Source of the DNA: Oscillospiraceae bacterium
GTDB lineage: Bacteria > Bacillota > Clostridia > Oscillospirales > Acutalibacteraceae
Direction of reading: 5' to 3'
Length of the DNA: 42,716 nt
Assembly: GCA_015066095.1 (NCBI GenBank)
Contig: SVPC01000015.1
Span: 1-42,716 of the forward strand
In this document: in pieces, positions 24,034-42,716 of the stretch
Layout: each line of letters opens with the position of its first letter
Numbering within the stretch: position 1 is the stretch's first letter
Program-made: the position numbers and the translations under genes
Notes under the pieces: model-generated
What the model was told of the DNA's origin: nothing
Databases searched by the model: none
Seen by the model: only the letters and a program-made list of their open reading frames with translations

Positions 24034-25856
24034 TATTTTCTCTTCGATTCGTATTTCATTCTTTCTTCTTTTCCTAGAATTTTCTTGCGAAGTCTTATAT
24101 TGTTGGGAGTAATCTCAACAAGTTCATCATTCTTTATAAATTCAAGTGACTGTTCAAGGCTTAAAACGCTATGCGGTACAAGACGCAAAGCATCATCTGA
24201 CCCCGAAGCACGGGTATTTGTAAGTTGCTTTTTCTTGCACACATTACAAACAATATCCTCATTCTTGGGGTTTTCGCCTACAATCATACCTTCGTAAACC
24301 TCGGTCGAAGGACCTATAAAAAGTCTACCTCGGCTTTGAGTATTAAAAAGACCGTAGCCTGTAGATTCTCCTGTTTCGTGAGCGATAATAGACCCAGTAG
24401 TGCGTTGCTGAATGTCGCCCTTGTACTCCTCATAACTATTAAACACATGGTTCATAATGCCGTTACCGTTAGTATCGGTCAAAAACTGTGAACGGTAGCC
24501 GAGCAGTCCGCGCGCAGGAATCAAAAATTCCAAATGCGATGTACCGCCGTCACGCGTACCCATATTCTTAATTTCTGCCTTGCGGGTACCTAGTCTTTCC
24601 ATAACTGCGCCCACATATTCTTCGGGAACTTCAATCATCAAAAGTTCAATCGGCTCTAAAAGTTTGCCGTCAGCATCTTTTTTATAAATAACTTCGGGCG
24701 GAGACACCTGAAATTCATAACCCTGACGGCGCATAGTCTCAATTAAGATAGAAAGGTGGAGTTCACCTCTACCTGAAACCTTGAAAGTATCTGCCGAGTC
24801 GGTTTCTTCAACACGCAAACTAACATTGGTCATAACCTCTTTGAAAAGACGGTCGCGAAGATTACGTGATGTTACAAACTTACCGTCACGACCCGCAAAG
24901 GGAGAATTATTAACCATAAAGTTCATAGAAAGAGTAGGCTCGTCTATCTTCACAAAAGGTAATGCTTCTATATTTTCGGTATCACAGGCAGTTTCGCCTA
25001 TTTCCAAATCGGCAAGGCCTGCCACCTGTATTATATCACCAACGGTTGCTGTTTCCACCTCAACCCTTTTTAGTCCCTTATACATAAAGAGTTTTGCAAT
25101 TTTTAAGTTATGGTGACTGCCGTCTTTATGGCAAAGGGTTACGGTTTGTCCGCTTTTAAGTGAACCGCGTATAACCCTGCCCACACCTATTCTGCCAAGG
25201 TACTCATCATATTCAATATTAGTAAACAAAACCTGAAGAGGTGCTTTTGTGTCACCTGCAGGCGGTTCTATTTCTTTCACTATAGCATCAAATAAAGGAC
25301 GCATATCTTCGCCCTTAATATCAGGTGAAAGACTGGCATATCCATCACGACCCGAAGCAAATACAACAGGAAACTCAATTTGTTCTTCATCCGCGCCGAG
25401 TTCTATAAACAAATCAAGCACCTCATCTACAACCTCGTAAGGTCTTGCCATAGGTCGGTCAATTTTATTAACCACAACCACCGCTTTTTTACCAAGCGCC
25501 AACGCTTTCTTTAAAACAAAACGGGTTTGTGGCATACAACCCTCAAATGCGTCAACAAGCAAAAGCACACCGTCAACCATTTGTAAAATACGCTCAACCT
25601 CACCGCCAAAATCAGCGTGGCCTGGAGTATCAACAATATTTATCTTTATATTGCCGTACATAACACTTGTGTTTTTTGACAAAATGGTTATGCCGCGTTC
25701 TCTTTCCAAGTCATTAGAGTCCATAACACGCTCGTCCACAGATTCATTCTCACGGAAGGTGCCACTTTGTTTTAAAAGTTGGTCTACAAGAGTGGTTTTG
25801 CCGTGGTCTACGTGCGCTATTATAGCTACATTGCGCAAATTTTCAATTCTTGTCAT
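24033..25856 (-). CDS. typA: Ribosome-associated translational GTPase TypA/BipA
   Basis: Translational GTPase related to EF-G that binds the 70S ribosome and aids 50S assembly and stress growth. The 607 residues match the family. G1 AHVDHGKTT lies at about 14-22, switch-I/G2 in ERGITI at about 53-58, G3 [14 protein letters not shown] at about 76-89, and G4 NKID at about 130-133. Domains II, III and V follow, with the TypA-specific C-terminal domain containing [14 protein letters not shown] (about 445-458) and [17 protein letters not shown]. Own promoter; first gene of typA-exonuclease-NSS. Confidence 0.96.
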
Positions 25857-31648: not shown

Positions 31649-31711
31649 TTATAATGGAAGAGGTTAGGCGAAACGCCTTTTAGGCGTTTCAACTAACTAC
31701 AATCATTATAA
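31649..31711. repeat. Short hairpin element, minimal copy of the family near the 23S gene
   Basis: Ends TTATAATG...GTTAG and, reverse-complemented, TTATAATG...GTTAG enclose the hairpin GAAACGCC-TTTTA-GGCGTTTC. The same flanks (CTAACTACAATCATTA and TTATAATGGAA) bound the hairpin array at 42210-42414 in reverse orientation. It contains TATAAT (31650-31655) just 5' of an operon, so it may contribute a -10 element. A TTGAAA/TATAAT pair with a poor 19-bp spacer (31615-31645) lies immediately upstream. Confidence 0.7.
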
Positions 31712-42209: not shown

Positions 42210-42414
42210 AATAATGATTGTAGTTAGTCGAAACGCCTAAAAAGCGTTTCGGTAAGCCACTTTTTAAGTGGCTTTAGCAAAATTAAATTGTATAATTTAA
42301 TTTTGCACAACACTTATTGCAATGGAAAAGGACAAATTTTTAATAATAATTTGTCACAAAATCAAAGATTTTGTGGCGAAACAACTTTGTTTCGCCTACT
42401 CTATTCCATTATAA
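42210..42414. repeat. Hairpin-array repeat element (six adjacent stem-loops)
   Basis: This stretch has no gene. Between flanks TAATGATTGTAGTTAG (from 42213) and CTATTCCATTATAA (to about 42414) lie six perfect hairpins in near-continuous order: 42229-42251 (CGAAACGC, 8 bp), 42254-42274 (AAGCCACTT, 9 bp), 42277-42306 (GCAAAATTAAATT, 13 bp), 42331-42355 (GACAAATT, 8 bp), 42355-42375 (CACAAAATC, 9 bp) and 42375-42396 (GGCGAAACAA, 10 bp). The flanks match the element at 31649-31711 in reverse orientation, where they enclose a single hairpin. Confidence 0.8.
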
Positions 42415-42440: not shown

Positions 42441-42471
42441 AAAAAAACCGAGATAGCAAGTGCTATCTCGG
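42441..42471 (-). terminator. Terminator of the rRNA operon
   Basis: Minus-strand CCGAGATAGCA-CT-TGCTATCTCGG followed by TTTTTTT, about 60 nt after the 23S 3' end. Confidence 0.95.
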
Positions 42472-42532
42472 TAACTTTTATTTTGGGCTCACACCCTGAA
42501 AACTGAACAAGTAACGCGTGAGGATGAAAAAT

Positions 42533-42716
42533 AGGTCAAGCCCTCGGTCTATTAGTACTGCCTAGCACACATGTCGCCATGCTTACACTTGCAGCCTATC
42601 AACCCGGTAGTCTTCCGGGGACCTTACTAGCTTATGCTATGGGAAATCTTATCTTGAGGTTGGCTTCACGCTTAGATGCTTTCAGCGTTTATCCAATCCA
42701 TACTTAGCTGCCCAGC
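42533..42716 (-). rRNA. 23S ribosomal RNA, 3' end (partial, continues beyond the window)
   Basis: The minus strand reads the conserved 23S domain VI 3' segment: GCTGGGCAGCTAAGTATGGA at the window edge, CGCTGAAAGCATCTAAGCG, and GGCAGTACTAATAGACCGAG near the end. The mature 3' end lies at about 42533 (plus or minus 3) by analogy with other 23S genes. Only about 184 nt are present. No 5S gene follows; the spacer runs straight into the terminator at 42441-42471. Confidence 0.95.

Follow-up and report, generated by a model that had tools for sequence, protein, structure and literature searches.

The window, meaning the whole stretch of 42,716 nucleotides from an Oscillospiraceae bacterium that was analysed, ends in the 3′ part of a 23S rRNA gene, and an array of six hairpins lies beside it. 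The features of the array and its surroundings are the following:

42211–42412, + strand: full six-hairpin element, ATAATG...CATTAT, with two mirrored three-hairpin cloverleaves (model match G000:C10:42211-42412).
42211–42231, + strand: left terminal repeat ATAATGATTGTAGTTAGTCGA, with 0 mismatches to the end pattern; boundary in 67 copies.
42213–42318, + strand: cloverleaf 1 of the consensus structure, enclosing hairpins 1–3.
42213–42216 and 42219–42221 with 42310–42312 and 42315–42318, + strand: closing stem of cloverleaf 1.
42229–42251, + strand: hairpin 1, arms 42229–42236/42244–42251, 8 bp.
42254–42274, + strand: hairpin 2, arms 42254–42262/42266–42274, 9 bp.
42277–42306, + strand: hairpin 3, arms 42277–42289/42294–42306, 13 bp.
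42321–42410, + strand: cloverleaf 2 of the consensus structure, enclosing hairpins 4–6.
42321–42325 and 42329–42331 with 42400–42402 and 42406–42410, + strand: closing stem of cloverleaf 2.
42331–42355, + strand: hairpin 4, arms 42331–42342/42344–42355, 12 bp with one mismatch; 8 bp in the fold.
42356–42374, + strand: hairpin 5, core arms 42356–42363/42367–42374, 8 bp.
42375–42396, + strand: hairpin 6, arms 42375–42384/42387–42396, 10 bp.
42392–42412, − strand: right terminal repeat, read inward; here it matches the inverted left repeat only imperfectly.
31651–31709, − strand: one-hairpin derivative with the same ends as the array; orthologous site empty in four relatives.
42447–42472, unstranded: stem-loop, then a T run on the − strand; probable terminator of the rRNA operon, outside the element.
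42532–42716, − strand: 3′ end of the 23S rRNA, an incidental neighbour.

All six stem-loops that the original prediction placed in 42210–42414 were located, and the element proper occupies 42211–42412. Their description as almost gapless holds inside each three-hairpin group, where the gaps are 0–2 bases, and fails between hairpins 3 and 4, where an interval of 24 bases holds arms of the two closing stems. Each stem differs from the others, as had been claimed, and the array is no simple tandem repeat: the sole direct repeat found in it is one 12-base pair. The array and the one-hairpin element do have flanks in common (ATAATGATTGTAGTTAG is exact at 42211 and, on the minus strand, at 31693), and the rRNA operon does adjoin the array, with the 23S 3′ end at 42532 on the minus strand. 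Only 59 bases (42473–42531) lie between this end and the probable terminator; no 5S rRNA was detected there. The + strand of the array folds with −71.4 kcal/mol, against −33.7 ± 3.6 for shuffled sequences (z −10.4), and the − strand gives z −9.7; for either strand, 0 of 200 shuffles were as good. Nearly the whole element takes part in the fold.

The same structure emerges from the alignment of copies. With 65 copies (alignment A1), RNAalifold predicts six hairpins with two closing stems, which together make a mirrored pair of three-hairpin cloverleaves; A1 comprises 65 of the 72 full-length rows and leaves out L049:2194-2394, L058, L084, L149, L065 and both L125 readings. Changes on both sides are seen in 34 of the 62 pairs, compared with 16.4 ± 1.8 in shuffles, and 97.1% of the cells are paired (slid partners: 34–50%). 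By helix, the values are 97.8% for helix 1 of cloverleaf 1, and 96.9% and 88.7% for helices 5 and 6 of cloverleaf 2. Among 35 copies from outside the genus (A3), 43 of 62 pairs are two-sided (21.5 ± 2.4 in shuffles) and 97.4% of the cells are paired, in an alignment fitted to the model structure, which favours that structure. These are 35 of the 45 loci from the family and order samples; the excluded ones are L293, L418 and L421 (own genus), L310 (identical to L291), L304, L305, L306, L412, L422 and L423. Shuffled folds and covariation together rule out chance hairpins. Copies in other families (L409, L415, L416) keep the layout with quite different stems, and one (L414) is shorter, with apparently fewer hairpins. 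Two 252-bp versions from another family (L413 and L420 in G535) have one long imperfect hairpin in the second cloverleaf. As modelled, the double-cloverleaf shape is kept while its letters change. G–U pairs fill 102 of 4028 cells in A1 and A–C combinations 37, and the changes from Watson–Crick pairs mapped on the tree comprise 52 to G–U, 32 to A–C, 63 to other Watson–Crick pairs and 65 to other mismatches. Since G–U exceeds A–C both in cells and in changes, one strand appears mildly favoured, in a comparison where the structure itself was predicted on that strand; we infer that the pairs are maintained chiefly in the DNA, the strand as written being slightly preferred.

Full copies start with ATAATG and finish with CATTAT or a close variant. 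The 72 full-length rows measure 195–214 bp, and versions in other families range from 167 to 252 bp. In 67 near-full copies, picked for reaching both profile ends (a choice that favours conserved ends), the boundary bases are A in 67 and T in 66 on the left, and A in 67 and T in 65 on the right. TT is preferred outside the left boundary (T in 47 and 44 of the 67) and AA outside the right one (A in 52 and 51). Terminal inverted repeats, a trait of miniature inverted-repeat elements (MITEs), are present and imperfect, and the pattern used to find the ends misses right ends of the TTCCATTAT kind. No clear target duplication of 2–12 bp was detected (best z 2.4 among 880 combinations), in a test which a strictly AT duplication would escape; a TA duplication fits badly, the base expected to be T being T in just 44 of 67 left flanks.

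Copies of the flanks elsewhere, on whose existence the original prediction depended, were found both in the genome of the same bacterium and in its relatives. In this 1.32-Mb genome, the exact 17-base left end occurs in three places: the array, the one-hairpin element and contig 26. BLAST with the array gave 22 matches at E ≤ 10, many of them weak, and revealed a diverged six-hairpin copy (contig 7; 78% identity in the aligned portion), the right half of an element (contig 21) and one-hairpin forms (contigs 10 and 26). Across the genus, 28 of 70 genomes match the array at E ≤ 1e-4. With the covariance model (R1), 25 of 300 genomes and 14 of 135 genera of the family sample are positive, as are 11 of 394 genomes of the order sample, which include seven families besides the window's own; only the 8 (family) or 6 (order) best candidates per genome were scored. 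Presence is patchy in all three samples. Scanning named genomes with a pattern gave 59 stretches, 58 titled as Clostridia or Oscillospiraceae bacteria and one as ‘uncultured bacterium’; many of the titles refer to gut samples of sheep, goat, buffalo or deer. Viral contigs contained 0 matches to the exact end pattern and blastn found none in plasmid and phage collections, so these searches give no sign of a phage or plasmid origin. Rfam returned nothing at gathering scores, only sub-threshold matches, and the array was not assigned to any of its curated RNA families. Paper searches in a library of open-licence articles listed nothing that describes this repeat. The repeat is small (~200 bp), dispersed and without a protein of its own, as expected of a MITE.

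Three forms lie between the same ends: six-hairpin (~200 bp), three-hairpin (~100–120 bp) and one-hairpin (~53–64 bp), which bears out the proposal of fixed ends around a variable number of hairpins. The three-hairpin forms are L061 and L100 (flanks match at 93–94%), L079 and L145; one-hairpin forms were read by eye at about 15 loci, with L156 and L157 representing the same site in two genomes and L158 having a decayed right end. A paired-end scan produced 120 rows: 83 at 190–219 bp, 7 below 80, 14 at 90–119 (at least 8 of which are halves of full copies), 8 at 120–189 and 8 above 219. Element lengths cluster but are not strictly discrete. The scan lacks both one-hairpin elements of the bacterium's own genome because its pattern misses TTCCATTAT right ends. 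Folded singly, 61 of the 83 rows of 190–219 bp show six hairpins; 12 show seven, 9 show five and 1 shows four. The six-hairpin form is the most frequent and is found again in other genera and families, where its stems covary as well.

The two own-genome one-hairpin elements match the left end plus the right end of the array at 54 of 59 and 52 of 54 bases, ungapped. Their junctions can slide by 6 bases in the first and 1 base in the second, and the BLAST pieces overlap there by 6 and 8 bases. Because the array ends match with the middle missing and the pieces overlap at the junction, these elements look like deletion products. One-hairpin forms would result from an internal deletion whose endpoints lie in related sequences of hairpins 1 and 6, and three-hairpin forms from the loss of one cloverleaf, the ends being kept in both. 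The original prediction had suggested the reverse course as a possibility, in which the number of hairpins grows by insertion of palindromes into palindromes. The common ends of the one-, three- and six-hairpin forms would suit such growth, as would the centre of the array (CATTGCAATG), which resembles two joined ends; we nevertheless consider it quite improbable, given that the own-genome one-hairpin forms read as the array's two ends and that distant families have six hairpins in common. Deletion accounts for the variable hairpin number better than insertion does. The resemblance of the centre to two joined ends makes it possible that the six-hairpin form was, long ago, a dimer of a three-hairpin one.

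Empty sites, which the original prediction had named as a check, were found for three copies. The element at 31651–31709 is absent from the orthologous site in G034, G009, G031 and G017; the site reads TTTGTTATAATAAATATAATTATA in G034 and TTTGTT[ATAATG...CATT]ATAATAATTATAAT in the window. The array site is empty in G009, with the same small-gene neighbour, a similar rRNA terminator stem and an imperfect flank alignment, and the six-hairpin copy L088 of G016 is absent from the matching place in G000, where the flank is divergent. These three comparisons, made between species and not strains and with flanks that align poorly in two, show a presence/absence difference at orthologous sites, a further trait of MITEs. 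An empty site has one AT and a filled site two, which would look alike in sequence whether 2 bp were duplicated or the element was inserted bluntly between A and T. Three copies in G265, each on a different contig, are 100% identical and a fourth reaches 98% (two were compared letter by letter), which fits recent movement. In G015 a second copy directly follows the first, head to tail, with a single AT common to both at the joint (L051), and in G318 a 26-base fragment is joined head to tail to a copy with one AT shared. Close pairs, 0 to ~1.1 kb apart, are inverted (L049, L085) or direct (L072, L051/L102) and could be composite units. L046 (six hairpins) and L139 (one hairpin) were rejected as one site in two states and are uninformative, because their orientation is opposite and their left flanks differ.

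The empty sites, the identical copies and the AT-sharing joints fit a mobile element which joins at AT. The array is very probably one copy of a MITE-like, non-autonomous mobile family of this bacterial order. A recombinase or transposase supplied in trans would recognise its folded or palindromic ends and join the element at an AT dinucleotide within TTATAA-like sites, so that AT is left at both ends. TTATAA is similar to a −10 box, so TATAAT can be re-formed at the ends upon insertion.

The copies are almost always intergenic: 1 of 101 distinct sites lies inside a predicted ORF. At the 68 sites with predicted genes on both sides, the genes are divergent in 24, in the same direction in 39 and convergent in 5. 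Of the neighbours, 58 of 82 to the left and 49 of 86 to the right point away from the element. Some frames (L046, L053, L270 and others) leave the element into the neighbour gene and have an N-terminal peptide in common (such as KWLVE), so that the annotated starts of genes next to copies could be wrong. Reading inward, TTGACA-like hexamers (5 or 6 of 6 bases) are separated from the end TATAAT by exactly 17 bp in 6 of the 101 left flanks and 7 of the 101 right ones; at other spacings of 0–39 the mean is 0.6–0.7 per flank side. In the four tables no other spacing exceeds a count of 4, and outward reading at spacing 17 gives 2 and 0. This excess places a minority of the copies in or beside promoter-like −10 boxes. 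Some copies may have a host function. A function tied to the rRNA operon was rejected: the orthologous site in G009 lies beside the operon and is empty, so the operon is incidental. Stems similar to the 42447–42472 terminator are found in G009 and G031, in both without the element.

In a separate group of loci (L219 27-3027 in G031:C3, and also L159, L160, L214 and L215), the 3′ part of a sporulation sigma factor gene begins at a junction. Its best models are SigG, from about residue 91, with scores below the cut-off because the gene is partial. Beside the junction 113–118 of 115–120 bases agree in five genomes, and the gene itself is 72–76% identical; a C-terminal piece of a serine recombinase lies upstream of it in G031. 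These loci resemble a skin-type element that interrupts sigG and has a six-hairpin copy close to one of its ends. In four genomes the contigs break inside this copy.

The strong covariation across many genera could also point to a structured RNA, with a host or a selfish function at the RNA level and with its spread as a secondary matter. The inward-reading hexamers (13 in 202 flanks, about 1.3 expected) and the neighbour genes that more often read away from the element are in keeping with it; the rarity of G–U pairs, the lack of an Rfam match at gathering score and the patchy presence speak against it, and we regard it as unlikely.

Regarding the enzyme which would move the family, two families were scanned for, serine recombinases (PF00239) and Y1 transposases. 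PF00239 is present in 55 of 70 genomes and was not found in the element-bearing G005, G009, G013, G022, G026 and G034, of which G013 is 94% complete and most others are incomplete. Y1 genes are present in 42 of 70 and were not found in the high-copy genomes G046, G005 and G028 (67% complete). In these assemblies, neither type of gene tracks the element. By eye, no transposase was seen in the 25 largest clusters of the 1009 predicted ORFs beside copies, which look like housekeeping genes or frames leaving the element. No transposase with these ends was found in G265 and G318, where the ends listed pair at about 130–210 bp apart from one unpaired 3-mismatch match in G265 and the 26-base fragment in G318; in G336, among the matches listed, several ends are without a partner, under a pattern that misses TTCCATTAT right ends. 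At 20 Y1 loci (L342–L361) the best end-like matches have 4–5 mismatches, which excludes a REP-transposase partner at these loci, and the long Y1 gene of the bacterium's own genome, a match just under the NCBIfam cut-off to the REP-associated transposase model, is flanked by other repeats. L361 (G000:C28, near 25154-25489) holds the REP-type tyrosine transposase gene, and the GGGGACGGTTCT-type repeats beside it are a different repeat system in the same genome.

The enzyme could act on one strand. An HUH-type nuclease (IS200/IS605, REP-transposase or Helitron-like) would then cut the folded strand, with the double cloverleaf as its substrate, and insert it between A and T or after TTAT without target duplication. 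In its favour, TTAT followed by AATG...CATTAT is an equally good reading of the empty site, almost all of the element folds, and the excess of G–U over A–C mildly favours one strand. The inverted ends and the symmetric TT...AA preference of the flanks suggest a symmetric reaction instead, and together with the distribution of Y1 genes and the different repeats around the own-genome long Y1 gene they make this route rather doubtful. The other course would be a double-strand one, in which a DDE transposase or a serine recombinase binds the duplex inverted ends and recombines at a 2-bp AT core. It is possible, and we hold it tentatively: the ends are imperfect inverted repeats with AT at both, the preferred target is palindromic, head-to-tail neighbours have one AT in common, and TTATAA with its 2-bp AT core resembles a resolvase crossover site. 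To our knowledge, however, DDE transposases and serine recombinases need no conserved cloverleaf, and PF00239 was not found in the six element-bearing genomes named above. IS607 elements, which are reported to lack inverted ends (PMC6188088), also count against it.

Whichever enzyme moves it, the family is best filed as MITE-like; what is new is the covarying two-cloverleaf fold, the AT junction and the missing parent. The junction of RUP and Correia elements has TA. These and other MITEs are likewise small, AT-rich, inverted at the ends, folded and moved in trans, and Correia elements can make promoters, according to PMC3049150. The same paper ties a number of bacterial MITEs to a parent insertion sequence by likeness of the ends, whereas here no parent was found in the searches made, the junction is AT and covarying changes keep the fold in different bacterial families. 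BOX elements of Streptococcus pneumoniae (also PMC3049150) consist of boxA-(boxB)n-boxC with a varying number of tandem boxB copies. They too are short, interspersed and structured, with fixed end modules, a differing inside and inverted ends, and are presumed to be moved by another element's transposase. In our family, by contrast, the stems all differ, most copies are two-cloverleaf units, and those short forms that were examined look like deletions. BOX elements are over-represented between convergent genes (PMC3049150), the rarest arrangement here (5 of 68 two-sided sites). The array was not placed among them: its stems differ, and one 12-base pair is the sole direct repeat found in it. 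REP repeats with tyrosine transposases are also palindromic and intergenic, but the repeat beside the REP-type transposase gene in this genome is another one, and with 4–5 mismatches in the end-like matches at the 20 Y1 loci we do not assign the array to the REP/RAYT system.

Outside bacteria, ATon of the mosquito Aedes aegypti is likewise non-autonomous, with inverted ends, AT-specific insertion, duplication versus insertion between A and T undecided and no known autonomous partner (PMC3422177). It differs in its host, and as the term ‘secondary structure’ is absent from that text, no comparable fold is described there under this name. Mitochondrial GC clusters and double-hairpin elements are mobile palindromes as well, which merge, split and shuffle; they differ in being GC-rich and organellar, the main one is 42 bases long, and the parts of PMC4478555 at hand contain no two-cloverleaf unit.

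More boldly, and with a good deal less confidence than the MITE-like assignment, the family might be a new class of bacterial element. The folded double cloverleaf, as single-stranded DNA or a cruciform, would be the substrate, joined at AT in promoter-like TTATAA by a type of enzyme so far unlinked to such repeats; shape and not sequence would be inherited across families, and the one- and three-hairpin forms would still be mobile. A fold kept over several families while many stem letters change, with no parent visible, offers a natural test of whether shape drives transposition. The family also offers probable internal-deletion forms at known sites and AT-specific insertion into promoter-like targets, together with a covariance model able to find it.
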